Shown: in pieces, positions 19,277-33,735 of the stretch
Numbering within the stretch: position 1 is the stretch's first letter
Layout: every line of letters begins with the position of its first letter
Assembly: GCA_012520755.1 (NCBI GenBank)
Contig: JAAYNS010000046.1
Coordinates: 1 to 35,414, forward strand
DNA length: 35,414 nt
From: Tissierellia bacterium
GTDB lineage: Bacteria > Bacillota > Clostridia > Tissierellales > Tissierellaceae
Direction of reading: 5' to 3'
Made by a program: the position numbers and the translations under genes
Notes under the pieces: model-generated
The model's input: only the letters and a program-made list of their open reading frames with translations
What the model was told of the DNA's origin: nothing
Database searches by the model: none

Positions 19277-20461
19277 CTATATCCCCGCGTCTTTCTTTAA
19301 GCTTTCCGCTTTATCTGTCTTTTCCCAATTTACATTTAGATCTTGTCTTCCAAAATGTCCATAGGAAGAAAGTTGTCTATATATTGGTTTTCTTAAATCC
19401 ATGTCACGAATAATTGCTGCTGGTCTTAGGTCAAAGTGTTTTTGGACTAATGCTTCAATCTCATTATCAGAAATTTTTCCTGTTCCAAAAGTATCTACAT
19501 ATATGGATAATGGTCTAGCAACACCTATAGCATAGGCTAATCCAACTTCACATTTATCAGCTATTCCTGCTGCAACTATATTTTTAGCTACATATCTTGC
19601 TGCATATGATGCTGACCTATCTACTTTAGTACCGTCTTTACCTGAAAAAGCTCCACCACCATGTCTCGCATAGCCGCCATAAGTATCAACTATGATTTTT
19701 CTACCTGTTAATCCAGAGTCACCCATTGGTCCACCAATAACAAATCTACCCGTAGGATTGACAAAATACTTTGTATCTTCATCTAACATATCTGGAGACA
19801 CAACTTCATTAATAACATGTTCGATAATATCTTTTCTAATTTGATCCAAGTCCACATCAGAGCTATGTTGTGTAGACACTACAATGTTTTCAATTCTTAC
19901 AGGCTTATTATCATGATACTCTATAGTAACCTGAGTTTTGCCATCTGGTCTTAGATAGGTAAGAATGCCTTGTTTTCTCACATCTGCAAGTCTTTTAGCA
20001 AGTTTATGAGCTAAGGATATTGGCAATGGCATCAGTTCCTCAGTTTCATTACATGCGTAACCAAACATCATTCCTTGGTCCCCCGCCCCTATTAAATCTA
20101 GCTCATCATCACTATTTTCCTTTTTCTCTAAAGCCTTATTAACTCCTAATGCTATATCAGGAGATTGCTCATTAATTGCTGTTAAAACAGCACATGTTTC
20201 TGCATCAAAGCCATACTTAGCCCTGATATATCCAATATCAGTCACTGTTTGTCTTACAATTTTTTGTATATCAACATAACAGTCTGTTGTAATTTCGCCT
20301 GTTACCATCACTAAACCAGTGGAAACCATTGTCTCACAAGCAACTCTAGCAGCTGGATCCTTTTCTAAAATAGCATCTAGAATAGAATCTGATATAGCAT
20401 CACAGATCTTATCTGGATGACCTTCTGTTACAGACTCAGAAGTAAATAACCATTTTTTCAT
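19277..20461 (-). CDS. metK: S-adenosylmethionine synthetase
   Basis: [67 protein letters not shown]. Confidence 0.98.
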
Positions 20462-20741: not shown

Positions 20742-20858
20742 ACCACCTCATCTTCCAGAATTAACGACATCCTGTGGGATTTAGCACCTTTGTTTAAAAC
20801 AAGGTTGCCGGATATCATAGGGCCCATTCCCTCCATCACTCTTAATAAGGTTACATTA
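20742..20858 (-). ncRNA. SAM-I (S-box) riboswitch upstream of metK
   Basis: minus strand cttattaagagtgatggagggaatgggccctatgatatccggcaacc...aaggtgctaaatcccacagg...agatgaggtgg matches S-box consensus. Confidence 0.95.
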
Positions 20859-22814: not shown

Positions 22815-22913
22815 TATATAGTATGAAATCAGGGGAAGTCAGGTGGAAATCCTGCACAGAGCCGCTACGGTAAACTACTGAGCTAGTAAGTCCGAATGCC
22901 TGCCAATACTACT
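22815..22913 (+). ncRNA. Cobalamin (B12) riboswitch upstream of nrdG-nrdD
   Basis: tagtatgaaatcaggggaagtcaggtggaaatcctgcacagagccgctacggtaa...gtaagtccgaatgcctgccaatacta: conserved GGTG-AAATCC-TGC and GCCGCTAC core, B12-box-like AAGTCCGAATGCCTGCC, closing P1 tagtat/atacta. Confidence 0.88.
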
Positions 22914-22967
22914 TAACACTTTAAACTTCTTCGTTGCTAGGAGGTGGTGTAGACCATATTTTGGTGG

Positions 22968-23008
22968 TGCCATGCCCTTTTGAAACGGGACATGGTTTTT
23001 TATTTTTG
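22968..23008 (+). terminator. Terminator of the nrdG leader riboswitch
   Basis: gccatgcccttttgaaacgggacatggttttttattttt. Confidence 0.88.
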
Positions 23009-23020
23009 AGGGGGAATTTG

Positions 23021-23719
23021 ATGAATATAGCAGGAATAACAAAATTAAGTTTACTTGATTATCCTAATCATCTAGCCTGTACTATTTTTACGCCTGGTTG
23101 TCAATTCCGATGCCCCTTTTGCCACAATGGTAAATTAGCCCTTGCTAAAGCAAATTTAGCAACTAATTTTGATAATACTGAAGTTTTAAGATTCCTTGAA
23201 AAGAGAATGGGAATACTTGACGCAATATGTATTAGTGGCGGAGAGCCGTTATTGCAAGATGGTTTAGAAGATTTCATTAGAACAATTAAAAACATGGGAT
23301 ATTTAATTAAATTAGATACAAATGGATATTTACCAGATAGGTTGGAGTATTTACTTAAATTGGAACTCCTTGATTATGTAGCTATGGATATTAAAAACTC
23401 CCCTAATCGTTATGCTGAAACATGTGGTATTGTTGGAATCAATCTTGACACTATTTCTCGAAGCATACAGATACTTCAAGATTCTTCTATATCCTATGAA
23501 TTTAGAACAACAGTGGTCAGGGAATTTCACAGTACTAAGGATATTAGACATCTTAGTAATTGGAATTTAGGCGAGGCAAGATTATATCTCCAAAGTTTTC
23601 AAAATTCTAATGACCAGCTCTGTCCAAGGCTTCATGGCTATAATCCTCAAGAAATGAATAGATTATGTGACGATGCACGCAACAAAATTCCAGGCATCAG
23701 AGTACGTGGCTTAAGTTAA
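23021..23719 (+). CDS. nrdG: Anaerobic ribonucleoside-triphosphate reductase activating protein (radical SAM)
   Basis: TPGCQFRCPFCHNG (CxxxCxxC), CISGGEPLLQ. ORF track start 22934 falls in the leader; ATG 23021 follows GAGGGGGAA. Confidence 0.92.
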   Translation: MNIAGITKLSLLDYPNHLACTIFTPGCQFRCPFCHNGKLALAKANLATNFDNTEVLRFLEKRMGILDAICISGGEPLLQDGLEDFIRTIKNMGYLIKLDTNGYLPDRLEYLLKLELLDYVAMDIKNSPNRYAETCGIVGINLDTISRSIQILQDSSISYEFRTTVVREFHSTKDIRHLSNWNLGEARLYLQSFQNSNDQLCPRLHGYNPQEMNRLCDDARNKIPGIRVRGLS

Positions 23720-23747
23720 ATATTTTCTTATAAATTACTTAGAAGGG

Positions 23748-25832
23748 ATGAAAAATATGTATAAAGTACTAAAAAGAGATGGTTCAATTGTTGATTTTCA
23801 GTTTGAAAAAATTTCTAATGCTATTATTAAAGCTTTTGAAGCTCAAAAATGTGAGTACATTCAAGATGTAATTGATTTTATGACTCTAAAAGTTACCGCA
23901 GATTTTTCGAATAAAATACACAATGGTTATATTGGCGTTGAGGATATTCAAGATAGTGTGGAGCATGTTCTGATTCAGGCAGGATATTCAAATATTGCAC
24001 GTGCTTATATTCTTTACCGAAAGAAACATGAAAACATACGTGAAATTAAATCCACAGTTTTAGACTATAAAAAACTAGTAAACAGTTATGTTAAAATAGA
24101 CGATTGGCGTGTTAAAGAAAACTCTACCGTAACATACTCCGTAGGGGGATTGATCTTAAGTAACTCTGGGGCAATTACAGCGAATTATTGGCTTTCAGAA
24201 ATTTATAATCAAGAAATTGCAGATGCTCACAGAAATTGTGATTTACACATCCATGATTTATCCATGCTGACAGGATATTGTGCAGGCTGGTCTCTGGGTC
24301 AATTGTTATTAGAAGGTTTAGGCGGAATCCCAGGTAAAATAACTTCCTCTCCCGCAAAGCATCTTGCAACACTATGTAATCAAATGGTGAATTTTCTTGG
24401 AATTATGCAAAATGAGTGGGCAGGTGCACAAGCTTTTTCTTCATTTGATACATACTTGGCTCCATTTGTAAAAGTTGATAATCTAAGCTATGAACAAGTT
24501 GAAAAATGTATTGAATCTTTCATTTATGGTGTAAATACACCGAGTAGATGGGGAACTCAAGCACCATTTTCTAATATTACTCTAGATTGGACAGTGCCTA
24601 GTGATATGGCAGACAAACGTGCCATCGTTGGTGGAGAGGAGATGGATTTTTGTTATGGAGATTGCCAAGCTGAAATGGATATGATCAATCGTGCATTTAT
24701 TAATATTATGATTAAAGGTGATGCTGAAGGTAGAGGTTTTCAATATCCTATTCCAACATATTCAATAACAAAGGATTTTGACTGGTCTGAAACGGAAAAC
24801 AACGAGCTGTTATTTACTATGACTGCAAAATACGGTACCCCTTATTTCTCAAACTATATTAATAGTGATATGGAACCAAATGATGTTCGTAGTATGTGTT
24901 GTCGCCTAAGACTTGATTTACGTGAACTTAGAAAAAAAGCTGGTGGATTCTTTGGTAGTGGAGAAAGCACTGGGTCAATTGGTGTCGTAACAATCAATTT
25001 ACCACGAATTGCTTATCTATCTGAAAATGAACAAGAGTTTTACAATCGTCTAGATCAGCAAATGGATTTAGCTGCTAAATCACTTGATACAAAAAGAAAG
25101 GTACTTAAGAAACTGTTAGAAGCTGGACTTTATCCATATACAAAAAAATATCTTGGTACATTTGAAAATCATTTTTCAACTATAGGATTAATCGGGATGA
25201 ATGAAGCGTGTCTAAATTCCAAGTGGCTAAAATGTGATCTGACAGAATCTAAAGGTGTAGAATTTGCTAAAGATACTTTAAATCATATGAGAGAAAGACT
25301 ACAAATGTATCAGGAACAATATGAGTGCCTTTTTAATCTTGAAGCCACTCCTGCAGAATCAACCACCTATCGCTTGGCAAAACATGACACTGAACAATTC
25401 CCGGGTATCATTACTGCAGCTAAGAACGGGACAACTCCATATTATACAAATAGTACACATCTACCTGTAGGATATACTGACGACATCTTCGAAGCATTAG
25501 ATGTTCAAGACGAGTTGCAAACCCTTTATACTTCAGGAACTGTTTTTCATGCATTTCTCGGTGAGAAAATGCCTAGTTGGAAAAATACAGAACGTCTAGT
25601 ACGCACTATAGCTGACAACTATAAATTGCCTTATTTCACAATATCACCGTCCTACTCAGTCTGCCCTGAACACGGCTATCTCAATGGCGAACAGTCTATT
25701 TGTTCATTTTGTGGGAAACCAACTGAAGTCTATAGTAGGATAACAGGTTACTATCGCCCTGTACAAAATTGGAATGAAGGAAAGGTTCAAGAATTCAAGG
25801 ATAGACTAGTCTATCAACAAAAATCTCAATAA
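23748..25832 (+). CDS. nrdD: Anaerobic (class III) ribonucleoside triphosphate reductase
   Basis: 694 aa; ATP-cone N-terminus; HDLSMLTGYCAGWSL; C-terminal CPEHGY...CSFCG zinc site and SRITGYYRPVQNWNEGK glycyl-radical region. Confidence 0.96.
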   Translation: MKNMYKVLKRDGSIVDFQFEKISNAIIKAFEAQKCEYIQDVIDFMTLKVTADFSNKIHNGYIGVEDIQDSVEHVLIQAGYSNIARAYILYRKKHENIREIKSTVLDYKKLVNSYVKIDDWRVKENSTVTYSVGGLILSNSGAITANYWLSEIYNQEIADAHRNCDLHIHDLSMLTGYCAGWSLGQLLLEGLGGIPGKITSSPAKHLATLCNQMVNFLGIMQNEWAGAQAFSSFDTYLAPFVKVDNLSYEQVEKCIESFIYGVNTPSRWGTQAPFSNITLDWTVPSDMADKRAIVGGEEMDFCYGDCQAEMDMINRAFINIMIKGDAEGRGFQYPIPTYSITKDFDWSETENNELLFTMTAKYGTPYFSNYINSDMEPNDVRSMCCRLRLDLRELRKKAGGFFGSGESTGSIGVVTINLPRIAYLSENEQEFYNRLDQQMDLAAKSLDTKRKVLKKLLEAGLYPYTKKYLGTFENHFSTIGLIGMNEACLNSKWLKCDLTESKGVEFAKDTLNHMRERLQMYQEQYECLFNLEATPAESTTYRLAKHDTEQFPGIITAAKNGTTPYYTNSTHLPVGYTDDIFEALDVQDELQTLYTSGTVFHAFLGEKMPSWKNTERLVRTIADNYKLPYFTISPSYSVCPEHGYLNGEQSICSFCGKPTEVYSRITGYYRPVQNWNEGKVQEFKDRLVYQQKSQ

Positions 25833-26062: not shown

Positions 26063-27655
26063 TTAGGAATCCAACCATTTTTCCTCCCACTCAAATTGCC
26101 AGTTAAACATTTTTTCTTCTTTATAAAACCTACCACTAATTAAAGGATACGGTGCCGATAAAAAATCTACATCTTTTTGAGCAAAGTCTAGTATGGATTT
26201 AAAAATCGGATCTCCAATCCAATACTTATGGTTTTGTGCAATACCGGCTAGTTCATCTTCTGTAGTGATGCTGTGGATTTTAATATTTAAAAATATTTTT
26301 TCATAAAACTTTTGCAATCTATATTCAGGATCATAAATATAAATTTTACTCATCATACCAAATCTCTCATATAAATCTTGTGATATTGAAAGACTCATCA
26401 TGGGATCACCAATGATACCGAAACTTCTATCTGATAAATCCTCTGGAAACTTAACCTTATCAAACATTATTTTGTCCTTACCAAAATTATCTGATATAAT
26501 TCTGTATTGAGATTTTGATAAAGGGAAGCCAAATACAAGTGGAATATTTAATTTTTCTGATAAAGTAGTAGCACCTTGATATCCCTCTGAAGAGACACAC
26601 CATATATCGGATACTTCTGTAATTTCTCTGCTCTTCGGAGTATAAAAAATGAAACTTCTGTCTTTACACATATTCTTCAAACGCTCTATTACAATATCTT
26701 TTTCTGGTAAATTCATAGAATTCCAACCAAAAACCAAAGTTCTTTTAATTTTTGAGTTTTTAATATAACTTTGTGGATCTTGTGTTAGTTTATTAAGTAG
26801 TATCCAAGTTCCTAATGGTCCGGCCAAGTCTCCTGAACCTCCAAAATATATGATATTCTCTCTTTCATCAGCAATAGATTTTCCATCCATACCTATATAT
26901 TGTGGAATTGGCGAAGTAATCAAATATAAGGGTTCTTCCTGAATTTCATCCAAAACTTCTCCTATTTTACCTCTTAGTGGAGCTTCCAAACCAAAAATAG
27001 CATCTAGATGGCTAAAACGTGTATAATACCCTTCTTGATTCTTGTCAATACATTCATGATTAAGTAAAGTTTTACCGCAGCCTCCTGGAGATACAAATAT
27101 TGTATGACCTCTCTTTACAAACTCTAAGCTTGCAATCTGTATGTTTTCTGTTGCCAATGGTGGGAGATAACCCATTCTAGGCCTTGTCTCGGTTGGATAA
27201 TTAGCTGGTGTAGATTCTAAAAATTCAATGAGAGCCTCTCTAGATTTAGAAATATTTCTTACTAAGGGGCCTCTAGAAACTACAATAACCCTCTTGTTAG
27301 GATCCTTCTCCAACTCCTCTTTTAAAGGGAAATAATCTTCATTTGTTAGCACGTCCATACATGAAATATAAATAACAATATTCTTAAAGCCACTTTTCTC
27401 AATCTTCCTTTTCATATAATCATACCTACTAGAGCTAATCCCCATGACATACTCCGTCTCCTGTATTACAATGGGTAAAAAACGATCTGTAGCATTGTTA
27501 CTTAATACTGTAAAATATATCCCCCTTAGGCAAGTCCCACTTCCTACACCAACTAGAAGAACCTCCTTTCTTTTGAAGATCAGAATAGGCATAGAGGCCA
27601 TTTCTTTACCTGGACAATCTTTATATTTGATCATTTCCATAGTATTATAATTCAT
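26063..27655 (-). CDS. Nitrogenase component 1-like (Oxidored_nitro) protein, single-chain with an extra N-terminal Cys-rich half-module
   Basis: Residues ~170-530 follow component-1 layout (FVSPGGCGKT for HGPxGC, RFSHLDAIFGLEAPLRGKI, IIYFGGSGDLAG, IGDP); residues ~8-140 repeat the same N-terminal pattern (CPGKEM, GVGSGTC, ETEYVMGISSSRYDYMKRKI, YISC). Start ATG 27655 after GAGGGGG. Confidence 0.82.
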   Translation of the reverse strand: MNYNTMEMIKYKDCPGKEMASMPILIFKRKEVLLVGVGSGTCLRGIYFTVLSNNATDRFLPIVIQETEYVMGISSSRYDYMKRKIEKSGFKNIVIYISCMDVLTNEDYFPLKEELEKDPNKRVIVVSRGPLVRNISKSREALIEFLESTPANYPTETRPRMGYLPPLATENIQIASLEFVKRGHTIFVSPGGCGKTLLNHECIDKNQEGYYTRFSHLDAIFGLEAPLRGKIGEVLDEIQEEPLYLITSPIPQYIGMDGKSIADERENIIYFGGSGDLAGPLGTWILLNKLTQDPQSYIKNSKIKRTLVFGWNSMNLPEKDIVIERLKNMCKDRSFIFYTPKSREITEVSDIWCVSSEGYQGATTLSEKLNIPLVFGFPLSKSQYRIISDNFGKDKIMFDKVKFPEDLSDRSFGIIGDPMMSLSISQDLYERFGMMSKIYIYDPEYRLQKFYEKIFLNIKIHSITTEDELAGIAQNHKYWIGDPIFKSILDFAQKDVDFLSAPYPLISGRFYKEEKMFNWQFEWEEKWLDS

Positions 27656-28503: not shown

Positions 28504-29184
28504 TTAGTCATAAATTTTTCCTTCCTTTAATTTTATCACCCTATCAGCAAATAAATTTACTACCTCTTTATCATGAGAAATAAATAGATATGACATATTA
28601 TTCTTGTTTTTTATTTCTTTTAATAGATACAATATCTGTGCTTGAACAGAGATATCTAACATTGATGTAGCCTCATCTAGAATAAGTATCTTTGGTTCTA
28701 ACAGGAGTGCTCTTAAAATAGATAATCTTTGAATTTCTCCACCACTTACTTGATGGGGATATCTTTTTAAGATTGTATTATCTAATTTTAAATCGTTTAA
28801 CAGCTCTTCAATTCTATTTTCTTTATCCTTTAGTATTATATTAAAATTTTTTAAGGGTTCAATTATGCTTTTACCTAATTTTATAGATGGGTCAAAAAAG
28901 GAACTAGGTTTTTGTGATATAAGCTGTATATCTTTTCTATAGGGTTTAAATTCTTTCTTATTTAATTTAGATAGATCTACACTATTATAAACAATAGACC
29001 CACTATCTGCTTTTTCCAAGCCTAAGATCAACCTAGCAATAGTTGTTTTGCCACATCCACTAGGTCCCATGAGTGCTAGTATTTCTTCGCTTTCAAGAAG
29101 AAAGTTAATATGGTCAAGTACTAGCTTTTTATTTGCACGAAATCTATTAGAGTAAGTTTTACTAATATTCATTAATTCAATCAT
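28504..29184 (-). CDS. ABC transporter ATP-binding protein (peptide/nickel family, DppF/NikE-like)
   Basis: GPSGCGKTTIARLILGLE; VSGGEIQRLSILRALLLEPKILILDEATSMLD. Confidence 0.93.
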   Translation of the reverse strand: MIELMNISKTYSNRFRANKKLVLDHINFLLESEEILALMGPSGCGKTTIARLILGLEKADSGSIVYNSVDLSKLNKKEFKPYRKDIQLISQKPSSFFDPSIKLGKSIIEPLKNFNIILKDKENRIEELLNDLKLDNTILKRYPHQVSGGEIQRLSILRALLLEPKILILDEATSMLDISVQAQILYLLKEIKNKNNMSYLFISHDKEVVNLFADRVIKLKEGKIYD

Positions 29185-30115
29185 AGAGAAAGCACCTTAC
29201 CTTCCTGCTATTTGCATGATATAAATCAGGGTTCTCTACTTTACATCTATCCATAACAAACTTACATCTATCATAAAACCTACAGCCTATTATATCTTCT
29301 GTTGGTGATGGTGCCTTTCCTATCATAGGCTTCATTCCATTTTCAGGCAATGATTCAAAAAAACCAATAGTATATGGGTGCATTGGCTCTGATATTATAT
29401 TACTTCCTATTTCAATTACTTCCCCACTATACATAACTATTAATTCATCACAAAAATCTTTTACTAAATTTATATCATGAGTAATAATAATCATTGAATC
29501 TATTCCCTGTTCTTTAATCCTATTAAATACTTCGATTATGTCTTTTTGAACTTCTTTATCTAATCCCTTTGTTGGTTCATCAGCTATTAGCCAATAAGGA
29601 TTAGTAGCTATATGTATTGCCGTTAGCACCCTTTGTTGCATTCCTCCACTTAGTTGGAAGGAGTAGGAGTTTAAAATTCTATCTATATCTTCAAAGCCAA
29701 AAGATTCAATCAATTTTCTGGCTTTATTTTCTATATCGTCTTTGTCTTTGTAAATTAGATTTAATGATTCTTCTATTTGATTTTTTATCTTTCTAATAGG
29801 ATTTAGGGATTCGCTAGGGTTTTGAGGAATATAGCCAAATACTTTGCCTAAGTATTTCTCTCTTTCCTTTTTTCTTAGATTTTGGATATTTTGATTGCCG
29901 TAGTGAATATTTCCTTTCACAACTGCATAATTAGGCAATAATCCTAATATGCCTAGTGCTAATACACTTTTACCGCATCCTGTTTCACCAACAATACCTG
30001 TGATTTTATCTTTTTTAATTACTAAATCTGTACTTCTAAGTGCCTTAACTTGTTGTCCTCTCGTATTAAATTCTACTTGAAAATCTTCTAATATTAAATC
30101 TGAAATCTGGGTCAT
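29177..30115 (-). CDS. ABC transporter ATP-binding protein (peptide/nickel family, DppD/NikD-like)
   Basis: GETGCGKSVLALGILGLL; LSGGMQQRVLTAIHIATNPYWLIADEPTKGLD; C-terminal CRFYDRCKFVMDRCKVENPDLY oligopeptide extension. Confidence 0.94.
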   Translation of the reverse strand: MTQISDLILEDFQVEFNTRGQQVKALRSTDLVIKKDKITGIVGETGCGKSVLALGILGLLPNYAVVKGNIHYGNQNIQNLRKKEREKYLGKVFGYIPQNPSESLNPIRKIKNQIEESLNLIYKDKDDIENKARKLIESFGFEDIDRILNSYSFQLSGGMQQRVLTAIHIATNPYWLIADEPTKGLDKEVQKDIIEVFNRIKEQGIDSMIIITHDINLVKDFCDELIVMYSGEVIEIGSNIISEPMHPYTIGFFESLPENGMKPMIGKAPSPTEDIIGCRFYDRCKFVMDRCKVENPDLYHANSRKVRCFLYD

Positions 30116-30933
30116 ATTATTTCCTCACTCCTTCCGTCAAAAATATCTCTTAAAAAATCCCCTATAGTATTTATAGACATTAGAGTAATAAATATAAAAA
30201 ACCCTGGAATTATTAGTAAATGAGGATAACTTCTATAATATAGTCTTGCATCATTTATCATTACACTCCAGTCTGGAGTAGGTGGTTGAACCCCTAAACC
30301 TAAAAAGCTTAATGCTGCTACTGATAATATAGCTCTGCCTGTCCTTATTGCAAATAAAACTATAATATTAGGAAGTATATTAGGTATAATGTGTTTTAAA
30401 ATTATAGATAAATCACTACTGCCTAAACAAATCATGGCTTCTATGTATGGTTCCTCTTTGACTTTTAATATTTCTGTTCTTATTATTCTAGAAAAACCTG
30501 CCCATGATGTTATACTTAAAGCTAGTATTAAATTCTTTATATTAGGACCTAATATTCCAGCAATTGCTATGGTAAAACACATTTCTGGCAGTGCTTGAAA
30601 TATGTTTGTTACCGAAGTAAGTAAATAATCTATAGTGCCACCATAATATCCTCCTATGATTCCAACTATAGTTCCAATTAGCATTGATATTATAGTAGCA
30701 AATAAAGCTATTACAATTGATGTTTTTGCACCATGAATTATCCTGCTTAGTAAATCTCTACCTAAGGCATCTGTGCCCAATTTATATTCTGCACTTGGAC
30801 CTTCAAGCCTTCTAGATGAATCTTGAACATTTGGATCATAAGGTGCAACATAAGTTGCAAATATGGAACTAAATATAATTATTGCTAAAATTAATATGGA
30901 TAAAGCGCCTGATATCTTTCTTCTAATTTTCAT
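30112..30933 (-). CDS. ABC transporter permease (DppC/NikC-like)
   Basis: LGTDALGRDLLSRIIHGAKTSIVIAL; AALSFLGLGVQPPTPDWSVMINDAR. Confidence 0.94.
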   Translation of the reverse strand: MKIRRKISGALSILILAIIIFSSIFATYVAPYDPNVQDSSRRLEGPSAEYKLGTDALGRDLLSRIIHGAKTSIVIALFATIISMLIGTIVGIIGGYYGGTIDYLLTSVTNIFQALPEMCFTIAIAGILGPNIKNLILALSITSWAGFSRIIRTEILKVKEEPYIEAMICLGSSDLSIILKHIIPNILPNIIVLFAIRTGRAILSVAALSFLGLGVQPPTPDWSVMINDARLYYRSYPHLLIIPGFFIFITLMSINTIGDFLRDIFDGRSEEII

Positions 30934-31873
30934 AACTATCAGCTCCTATTCTTATTTTAGGATCAATAATTATGGATACTATATCGATTAAAGTTGTTAC
31001 TAGTACAAAGACAAATCCTGTAATCAATACATAGGCTTGCAAATAAGGAAAATCTTTTAAATAAATAGATTCAATAGCATAGCTACCGATTCCAGGTAAT
31101 GCAAATATAGTTTCAATAACCGCAGAACCACCTAAAATAGAACCCATAAAATTAGCTAATAGTGTTAATATTGGCAAAATAGAGTTTGGTAGTATGTTTC
31201 TAATATATAAATTAAATTTAGATATCCCTTTTGATTTAAGTGCTAGATAATATTGTTTTCCGAATTCTTGTATCATAGAAGATCTCATAACTCTTGCTGT
31301 AGTTGCTATGGTTACAAGAGATAGAGAAAAAGCTGGCATAAGCATATGTTTCCATCCACCGTTACCAGATGTTGGTAACCATCCAAGAATCTCTGAAAAG
31401 AACAAAATAAATAAAAGAGCCAACCAAAAATTAGGTAAGCTCAGCATAATATTGTTCATTAAATTAATAGAACCATCTATTAAAGTATCTTTATATATAG
31501 CTGATATGATGCCTAAACTTATACCTAAAAAACTTGTTATGCCTATGGAGTATAGAGCTAACTTAACAGTTATTGGGAGTTTTCTCCGAATCATTTCCGA
31601 TACTGATTCATTACTAGAGTATGATTCTCCAAAATCACCTTTTAATACACCTTTTATCCAATCTAGATACTGAATATAAACTGGTTTATTTAAACCCATT
31701 TCTTCTCTTCTTTGCTCAATTTGTTCAGATGTAGGACTGTAGTTTCCGCCTCTGCTTAATGATAATTCAGCTGGATCTCCTGGAGTTATTAGCCCCAGGA
31801 GAAAAGTAATTATTGTTATTCCAACTAATACTATAAAAAGAGACTTCATTCTTTCTATAATATATTTTTTCAT
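30923..31873 (-). CDS. ABC transporter permease (DppB/NikB-like)
   Basis: GDPAELSLSRGG...MGLNKPVYIQYLDWIKGVLKGDFGESYSSNESV; ARVMRSSMIQEFGKQYYLALKSKGI; VIETIFALPGIGSYAIESI. Confidence 0.94.
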   Translation of the reverse strand: MKKYIIERMKSLFIVLVGITIITFLLGLITPGDPAELSLSRGGNYSPTSEQIEQRREEMGLNKPVYIQYLDWIKGVLKGDFGESYSSNESVSEMIRRKLPITVKLALYSIGITSFLGISLGIISAIYKDTLIDGSINLMNNIMLSLPNFWLALLFILFFSEILGWLPTSGNGGWKHMLMPAFSLSLVTIATTARVMRSSMIQEFGKQYYLALKSKGISKFNLYIRNILPNSILPILTLLANFMGSILGGSAVIETIFALPGIGSYAIESIYLKDFPYLQAYVLITGFVFVLVTTLIDIVSIIIDPKIRIGADSYEN

Positions 31874-31874
31874 A

Positions 31875-33476
31875 TTATTTAGTCCATTCTACTTCTGGTA
31901 ATTCCAATCCATAAAGCTCTGCATTGTAATTTGATAGTTTATTACTATAACCCATTATATTTACGTCATTAAATAAAGGGAAGACAGGATAGGTAGTTGT
32001 TGATAGTTCTTGTACTTTATCATAAATTGTTTCAAGATTGTTAACATCTAATTCTTTATTTGCAGACTCCATTAAATTATTTACTTCCTCAATATCATAA
32101 CCTAAACTGTAATTTTTATTGTGGTCTCCTGAAGTAAGCATAAATCTTCTAAATATAGTTGAAGGCTCTCCATTTGATAAACCTTGCTGAAGTCTAGCAA
32201 ATCCAAAGTCTCCCTCTTTAAGTCTTTCTCTTAAAACAGAATACTCCATAGGTTGTATAGTAACATCTATTCCTATTTCAGCTAACCAAGGTGCTATTAA
32301 TTCTGCTTCTGTTTTTTGTGTTGGATCATTTCCATTTATTAAAAATTCTGTCTCTAATCTTTCTTCTCCTAGAACCTCTTTAGCTAACTCTTTGGCTCTT
32401 TCCATATTTTCTTCAACTGGATATTCTTTATAAAAAGGAGTTGAGTAGTTTAATATATTTGTTGTTGGGCTTCCATATCCAAAGTAAACTATATCTACTA
32501 TGTCTTGGCGATTTAAAGCTAAACTAATAGCTTCTTTTAATCTGATATCATTAAATGGTTCCAGTTCACCATTTGTAACTAAAAATCTAATCATAGTAGA
32601 TTTAGATTCAGCGATTAAAAAATTGTCATCTTTCTTAAGTTCTTCAGCTAAGGCAGGTGTCAATGAATCCAAATCTAATGTTCCATGAATTTCTCCTGCT
32701 TTTAAAGCGGAGTATCTCGTATCTACATCTGGTATAGATCTAACCTTTATAGATTTAGCTTTGGCACTTTCTCCCCAATAATCTTCATATCTTTCTAATA
32801 AAACATAATCATCTTTTTGGTTATCTACAATTTTAAATGGACCAGTTCCCATTGCAATTCCATTAAAGTTTCCTTCTTCATCAAAATTTTCTGGGCTGTA
32901 GATTGCACTTCCCCAGTTTATCATTCTATACAATTGAGTTGGCTTAGATTCATCAAAAACTAATTTAATATTATAATCATCAATTTTCTCATAAGAAACT
33001 AGCCCCGGATAATGTGAATCAATATCTAATGGATAGTATGATGAAGGTTTTATCCCTAAACTCATTCTATCAAAATTTGCTATAACAGCATCTGCATTAA
33101 ATACTTGTCCATCATGAAATGTTACACCTTCTCTTAATTTAAATATCCACTCTTTGCCATCCTCAGACATTTCCCAGTCCTCAGCTAGAGAAGGAAGAGG
33201 CTCTCCATTTTTGCCTTGTCTTATGAGTGGTTCCCAAACATAAAGAATTGAACTACAATAGTAGCCATCCTCTTCTCCAGGAGCTAAATGTCTTTTACCT
33301 GCTAATACAATTGTTTCATCTTCATCTACTACTTGAATTGTTTCGTTTACAGCTTCTTCTGTGCTACTTTCATCTAAAACCTCATTATTGTTCTGACATC
33401 CTGTTAATGTCAATGATAATACTAATGCTAAAAGCAAGAAAATTCTTAAACTTTTTTTGTTAAACATGTTTAACAT
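31875..33476 (-). CDS. ABC transporter substrate-binding lipoprotein (family 5, peptide/nickel type)
   Basis: Lipobox ALVLSLTLTGC; LAEDWEMSEDGKEWIFKLREGVTFHDGQVFNADAV; C-terminal NikA-like TTYPVFPLFNDVNIMGYSNKL. Confidence 0.92.
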   Translation of the reverse strand: MLNMFNKKSLRIFLLLALVLSLTLTGCQNNNEVLDESSTEEAVNETIQVVDEDETIVLAGKRHLAPGEEDGYYCSSILYVWEPLIRQGKNGEPLPSLAEDWEMSEDGKEWIFKLREGVTFHDGQVFNADAVIANFDRMSLGIKPSSYYPLDIDSHYPGLVSYEKIDDYNIKLVFDESKPTQLYRMINWGSAIYSPENFDEEGNFNGIAMGTGPFKIVDNQKDDYVLLERYEDYWGESAKAKSIKVRSIPDVDTRYSALKAGEIHGTLDLDSLTPALAEELKKDDNFLIAESKSTMIRFLVTNGELEPFNDIRLKEAISLALNRQDIVDIVYFGYGSPTTNILNYSTPFYKEYPVEENMERAKELAKEVLGEERLETEFLINGNDPTQKTEAELIAPWLAEIGIDVTIQPMEYSVLRERLKEGDFGFARLQQGLSNGEPSTIFRRFMLTSGDHNKNYSLGYDIEEVNNLMESANKELDVNNLETIYDKVQELSTTTYPVFPLFNDVNIMGYSNKLSNYNAELYGLELPEVEWTK

Positions 33477-33520
33477 CTAATCCCTCCAATAAGTATTTAG
33501 ATTATAAAAAACAATATAAA

Positions 33521-33548
33521 ACCAACTCTTATGAACCGTAAGAGTTAG
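33521..33548 (-). terminator. Terminator of the cobalamin riboswitch upstream of the SBP gene
   Basis: minus strand aactcttacggttcataagagttggttttat. Confidence 0.8.
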
Positions 33549-33549
33549 G

Positions 33550-33645
33550 CTTTATGAATAGGTATCCAGACTTAGTCTTTCGACATCACTGTAGCGGCAC
33601 TGTGAAGGATTTTCACCTTACTTCCCCTCTGTAGTTTATTTAATC
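33550..33645 (-). ncRNA. Cobalamin (B12) riboswitch upstream of the ABC-NifH/NifD-like operon
   Basis: minus strand actacagaggggaagtaaggtgaaaatccttcacagtgccgctacagtgatgtcgaaagactaagtctggatacctattcat: GGTGAAAATCC..CACAGTGCCGCTACAGTGA core and AAGTCTGGATACCT B12-box-like element. Confidence 0.9.
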
Positions 33646-33735
33646 TTATTATAATTATATATGAAACCTATATGCAAAGCAATACATACAAAATTAAATT
33701 ATTTTCTCCTAATGAAACTTCTTCATAGCATATCC

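Follow-up and report, generated by a model that had tools for sequence, protein, structure and literature searches.

Sets of nitrogenase-like genes that come with ABC transporters occur widely among anaerobic Firmicutes, and no function has been assigned to them. In the known enzymes NifH sits over the pseudo-twofold axis of alpha and beta, at their first domains and above the interface cluster, and in known relatives domain I of alpha provides ligands to the cluster and forms part of the face on which NifH docks. NifH-driven reduction of tetrapyrroles has precedents in DPOR, COR and CfbCD (PMC11423573); of these, DPOR (BchL/BchN-BchB) uses a cross-subunit [4Fe-4S] site to which BchN contributes three Cys and BchB one Asp (PMC11423573). 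Dos Santos et al. (2012) described a nitrogenase-like clade (Mlab_1040/1039 and Dhaf_1539/1540) that has two subunits and is linked to ABC transporters and, separately, fusions of NifH to a NifE-like chain (PMC3464626). We analyzed a 35,414-nucleotide stretch of DNA from a Tissierellia bacterium (the window) that encodes a protein of a different build, in which domain I of an alpha-type subunit is fused to a beta-type subunit. The window protein shares the component-1 fold with DPOR, which has two full subunits. With the clade of Dos Santos et al. it shares the C88- and C154-like Cys of alpha, the C95-like Cys of beta, a NifH-like partner and linkage to an ABC transporter, and in the loci studied alphas of that type align with module 1 and betas with module 2; that clade, however, has two full-length subunits encoded by two genes. 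In CfbCD (Ni-sirohydrochlorin a,c-diamide reductase), too, one component-1 gene stands next to a gene for a NifH-like protein, and CfbC is the best NCBIfam model for the NifH-like protein of the window, but CfbD forms homodimers from one full module and lacks the extra alpha domain I. The NifH-NifE fusions resemble the window protein in being gene fusions within nitrogenase-like sets, although the chains that they join are different ones.

Features of the operon and of the fused protein in the window
Feature	Coordinates	Strand	Evidence or remark
AdoCbl (cobalamin) riboswitch aptamer heading the operon	33516..33652	-	RF01482, 53.9 bits (gathering 50), E 7.7e-8, full length
NikA/DppA/HbpA-type (SBP_bac_5) substrate-binding lipoprotein	31875..33476	-	PF00496 279 bits; TIGR02294 NikA 187 bits, cut-off 393
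NikB-like permease	30923..31873	-	NCBIfam Opp2B 315.7 bits, cut-off 350
NikC-like permease	30112..30933	-	NCBIfam Opp1C 282 / NikC 280 bits, under cut-offs
NikD/OppD-like ATPase	29177..30115	-	NCBIfam search
NikE-like ATPase	28504..29184	-	NCBIfam NikE 217 bits
NifH-like ATP-dependent reductase, 269 aa	27669..28478	-	PF00142 301 bits; NifH/CfbC models 316/319 bits, under equivalog cut-offs
Fused nitrogenase component-1-like protein, 530 aa	26063..27655	-	ORF call, homologues, Foldseek to nitrogenase/DPOR chains
Module 1, residues 1-150, alpha-type component 1 domain I	27206..27655	-	separate 153-aa gene in G001; invariants common to full-length alphas; NifE profile match
Module 2, residues 163-530, complete beta-type component 1	26066..27169	-	PF00148; separate 358-aa gene in G001; alignment to betas
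Cys14 codon, NifD-C62-like position	27614..27616	-	among reduced homologues in the window only
Cys42 codon, NifD-C88-like	27530..27532	-	invariant
Cys99 codon, NifD-C154-like	27359..27361	-	invariant
Cys193 codon, NifK-C95-like	27077..27079	-	invariant in module 2 / beta

The fused protein is a tandem of an alpha-type domain I and a complete beta-type subunit, a real and well-defined new architecture within a known superfamily. Its coordinates, strand and quoted motifs had been given correctly in a first-pass annotation made from the letters alone. The reading frame opens with an ATG at 27655, with GAGGGGGAAGGCATA just upstream, and its stop ends at 26063; the ribosome-binding site is strong and overlaps the 3' end of the NifH-like gene. 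The window protein scored 23.1 bits with PF00148, below the gathering score of 28.6 that was passed by its homologues (77.5 bits in Acetobacterium bakii, 92.5 in L025 and 30.5 for the separate beta of G001). Since this match begins only at residue 190, which is profile position 15, canonical component 1 starts near residue 163 with some 160 residues ahead of it; the tandem proposed in the first-pass annotation was confirmed, with the start of its second module moved from residue 171 to near 163. In a Smith-Waterman comparison the two modules of the window scored 27, as did shuffled sequences (248 of 500 shuffles as high), and the repeat therefore rests on profiles and structure. Aligning a profile of module 1 and full-length alphas to one of module 2 and betas by hhalign gave a probability of 92% (E 6e-7) and paired C42 with C193 and ISCMD with TSPIP, in line with the repeat of the component-1 pattern that had been proposed. 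Compared with NifE, NifD and BchB, the module 1 profile matched NifE with E 6e-9, so the likeness of residues 1-150 to the component-1 cluster domain held as well, and the module 2 profile matched NifE (E 8e-28) and BchB (E 6e-18). Module 2 fits the three Rossmann-like domains of the component-1 fold by profile and Foldseek, and module 1 corresponds to domain I only. A phmmer search of the PDB with the window protein alone as query returned no match, and a Pfam search of the window's own genome gave nothing above threshold.

AlphaFold2 gave a modest model of the window protein (pLDDT 66.5, pTM 0.61) and a good one of the A. bakii homologue (pLDDT 81.9, pTM 0.85). In both models one order of strands and helices occurs twice and is followed by two more domains, and their Foldseek hits were chains of nitrogenase, DPOR and NifEN, with E values as low as 4e-10 and 5.5e-14. 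Alpha fragments were omitted from the alignment used for folding because, when added to the fused alignment, they were misplaced across both modules.

The origin of module 1 is apparent from its relatives. In a Tissierellia MAG of the same family (G001) the two modules are adjacent genes of 153 and 358 aa that follow the NifH-like gene; in G737 the alpha is an intermediate of 273 aa, comprising domain I and part of the remainder; and other Clostridia have, as counterparts homologous to module 1, the N-terminal parts of full-length alphas (mostly 410-450 aa, about 420), which are common and have a beta gene after them. Module 1 is therefore an alpha subunit from which domains II and III have been lost, joined to an intact beta. 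The idea of a minimal single-chain heterodimer mimic, put forward in the first-pass annotation, was strongly supported, with a reduced alpha as its first half and a beta as its second. Fused homologues occur in Eubacterium callanderi, in A. bakii, A. wieringae and A. dehalogenans and at L025/L036; the fused form was present in 8 of the 40 genomes searched around Acetobacterium, in G848 and G1003, two Bacillota genomes from another family of that phylum, and, among the loci fetched from a class sample of 391 genomes, in three genomes only. No relative was found in the viral contigs or the plasmids searched. In the second of two alpha trees all ten reduced alphas formed one branch (support 100/99) apart from 20 full-length alphas. 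The first tree placed the split alpha of G001 nearer the Eubacteriaceae fusions than the window (96/76), the second left its position relative to the fusions open, and neither settled the order of fusion and fission; in the beta tree long branches prevented a firm placement of the window's beta-type module. The family thus displays a stepwise reduction of alpha, from about 420 aa through 273 and 153 aa to the fused form. This graded loss shows that domain I is the indispensable part of component 1 and suggests what a minimal scaffold for nitrogenase-type electron transfer consists of.

Module 1 contains exactly the three Cys that had been reported, C14, C42 and C99, and module 2 keeps a Cys at the GGC position (C193) with Pro at the other two (P165 and P249), also as reported; its further Cys, C202, C330 and C353, are not conserved. 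Calling module 1 Cys-rich is apt in relative terms only, with three Cys in about 150 aa against four in 370. Across nine reduced proteins the invariant Cys are exactly C42, C99 and C193, and across fifteen aligned module 1 or alpha sequences C42, R44, G72, C99 and D107 are invariant; R44 and the RG motif also persist across very divergent reduced homologues. C14 is missing in the other fused proteins and has a counterpart in some full-length alphas only. The proposal that module 1 supplies three ligands and module 2 the fourth is therefore not general, the conserved set being two plus one: the site could comprise four Cys in the window and three Cys with another ligand elsewhere. Dos Santos et al. 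(2012) noted the same pattern of two alpha Cys and one beta Cys in the Methanocorpusculum and Desulfitobacterium pairs and drew attention to DPOR, in which an Asp serves as ligand (PMC3464626, section 11); DPOR itself differs from the reduced family in the share taken from each subunit. The window also deviates in module 2 at four positions that are invariant in the other eight reduced proteins, with E170 for D, Q173 for G, G273 for T and D276 for F, perhaps reflecting an altered substrate that matches its altered importer.

The fused gene is the last of seven tightly packed genes, after those for the NikA-, B-, C-, D- and E-like proteins and the NifH-like protein. The latter has the P-loop GKGGIGKS and the cluster Cys motifs GCAG and VCGGF, which fits the features of Group IV nitrogenase-like reductases. 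Assignment of the importer to the NikABCDE nickel system failed, the NikA, NikB and NikC equivalog models scoring 187, 300 and 280 bits against cut-offs of 393, 447 and 358, and the PDB relatives of its binding protein are heme-binding protein A, DppA and NikA. At the other loci with a shortened alpha (reduced loci) the usual partners are a NifH-like ATPase and a BtuFCD-like importer, in place of which the window has its NikABCDE-like one. The order in Eubacterium, Acetobacterium, G001 and G737 is riboswitch, NifH-like gene, fused or split component 1, and BtuF-, BtuC- and BtuD-like genes, and the nearest models for the importer permease at reduced loci are BtuC. Importer genes adjoin all reduced loci examined, and a NifH-like gene is adjacent and in the same operon at most. 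G848 lacks the riboswitch and has, besides BtuFCD-like genes, a siderophore-type TonB receptor adjoining the fused gene. In G1003 the fused gene (L106, 7579-9291, minus strand) ends an operon of riboswitch and BtuFCD-like genes; a search of this 99% complete genome found no NifH-like gene, the best PF00142 match scoring 56 bits, and NifH may thus be dispensable there.

The riboswitch of the window lies 39 nt ahead of the first gene, and the operon is very probably under B12 control. This link is unexpected and new and goes beyond the content of the first-pass annotation; among the papers searched none tied nitrogenase-like proteins to cobalamin riboswitches, and we know of no B12 control of DPOR. 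A cobalamin riboswitch heads the operon at 12 of 13 reduced loci, counting that of G001 at 49.0 bits (gathering score 50), compared with 1 of 30 full-length loci, at many of which the scan covered only about 600 nt upstream of NifH (Fisher p 1e-8; 2e-5 with 7 lineages as units). This sets the reduced loci apart from the clade of Dos Santos et al., the single positive full-length locus (L027, from Acetobacterium) encoding a pair whose alpha is of the other type. Relative to B12-regulated BtuFCD corrinoid uptake operons, with which they share the riboswitch, the BtuC-like permease and the BtuF/IsdE-like binding protein, the reduced loci add a nitrogenase-like enzyme.

The riboswitch of L027/L085 (989-1171, plus strand; G336, genus Acetobacterium) is strong (100.5 bits) and heads a full-length alpha/beta pair of the PGTHCP-like type with BtuFCD-like genes next, possibly an independent B12 link. 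In G737 two cobalamin riboswitches flank a gene for a transporter-like protein of 352 aa that adjoins the reduced operon (L104, 9418-11027, minus strand), and an ORF that resembles this gene occurs close to the locus of A. bakii (L046, 13961-15007). The window itself has a further B12-class riboswitch at 22816-22909 (plus strand; AdoCbl-II 35.3 bits, gathering 36.5; RF00174 29.9), directly ahead of genes for an NrdG-like activase and NrdD (22934-25832), the anaerobic ribonucleotide reductase genes thus being under apparent B12 control.

The genome of the window (1.92 Mb, 96% complete) gave no match to CbiC, CbiD or CbiJ, encodes a PduO-type adenosyltransferase and has cobalamin riboswitches ahead of CbiP, a BtuC-like permease, CobT and another Opp/Nik-type importer; from its gene content it looks like a corrinoid salvager. 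A role of the fused protein as a replacement for CbiJ in corrin-ring biosynthesis was rejected for the window, as the three Cbi proteins were not found. On contig C59 of the same genome (L091, 675-6873), a cobalamin-riboswitch-led operon for an Opp/Nik-type importer ends in a CbiF/CobM-like tetrapyrrole methylase gene (181.5 bits, under the cut-off), which suggests that SBP_bac_5 importers are tied to tetrapyrrole enzymes in this organism.

Our best explanation for the whole, to which we give an even chance, is a minimal NifH-driven component 1 that reduces an imported corrinoid under B12 control. When cellular B12 is low, the importer of the operon would bring in a corrinoid or related cobalt tetrapyrrole. 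The NifH-like dimer would dock on the pseudo-twofold face of modules 1 and 2, and ATP hydrolysis would send single low-potential electrons to a [4Fe-4S] cluster between the modules, predicted to be held by C42, C99 and C193 together with C14 in the window and a non-Cys ligand elsewhere. Such electron transfer to an inter-module cluster is probable. By keeping alpha domain I, the protein would have retained the docking face and cluster site and discarded the alpha active-site cavity, and the sole remaining full cavity, in module 2, would give one substrate site per chain. There the corrinoid might be reduced from Co(II) to Co(I) for an adenosyltransferase, for example, or lose an axial ligand reductively. 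A corrinoid is the likeliest substrate, as suggested by the riboswitch and the importer, and we rate it somewhat below an even chance; we hold only tentatively that this is the smallest known nitrogenase-type catalytic component and uses ATP to drive the reduction of imported corrinoids (B12 forms). If true, corrinoids would be one more class of tetrapyrroles on which nitrogenase-like enzymes act. The conservation of no more than three Cys, the four departures in module 2 of the window and the modest confidence of its model count against this explanation, and G1003 is an exception to it.

The Nik/Opp/Dpp-family importer of the window and the TonB receptor of G848 make a metal chelate possible as substrate. 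In the main rival to corrinoid reduction, which we consider unlikely, the enzyme would act on a chelate or metallophore taken up by the importer and free its metal (Co, Ni or Fe) by reduction, and repression by B12 would reflect the supply of cobalt for B12. The importers belong to the Nik/CntA/Opp class in the window and to the BtuFCD/FecBCD superfamily elsewhere, which suits such a substrate, as does the metal transport that Dos Santos et al. (2012) proposed to be coupled to such genes (PMC3464626). With CbiC, CbiD and CbiJ not found, however, the window's genome would have no cobalt need for de novo B12 synthesis, and reductive release of a metal would seldom require nitrogenase-level potentials. 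The loss of alpha domains II-III, the failure to find a NifH-like gene in G1003 and the conserved residues missing from module 2 of the window would all suit a non-catalytic scaffold or sensor descended from component 1, but this is improbable given three Cys, R44 and the RG motif that are invariant across very divergent homologues and a NifH-like gene in the operon at most reduced loci.

Riboswitch control, seen both for this operon and ahead of NrdG/NrdD, would also be expected of a B12-independent enzyme that stands in for a B12-dependent one once B12 runs short; the importer genes at every reduced locus examined point to uptake instead, and we regard a stand-in as very improbable. We give least credence, hardly any, to a CfbD-like homodimer with module 1 as an unrelated N-terminal extension. 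Module 2 is about the size of CfbD, and CfbC is the best model for the NifH-like protein (319 bits); the CfbC cut-off of 402 is not attained, though, and module 1 matches domain I of NifE/NifD and the N-termini of full-length alpha partners and is a gene of its own in G001. Because the riboswitch-controlled sub-branch is found in cultured acetogens (Eubacterium callanderi and Acetobacterium), the function is directly testable.

The window contains two more riboswitches, both on the minus strand: a SAM riboswitch (20745-20851) ahead of the S-adenosylmethionine synthetase gene (19277-20461) and, at the left end, one for FMN (43-156).
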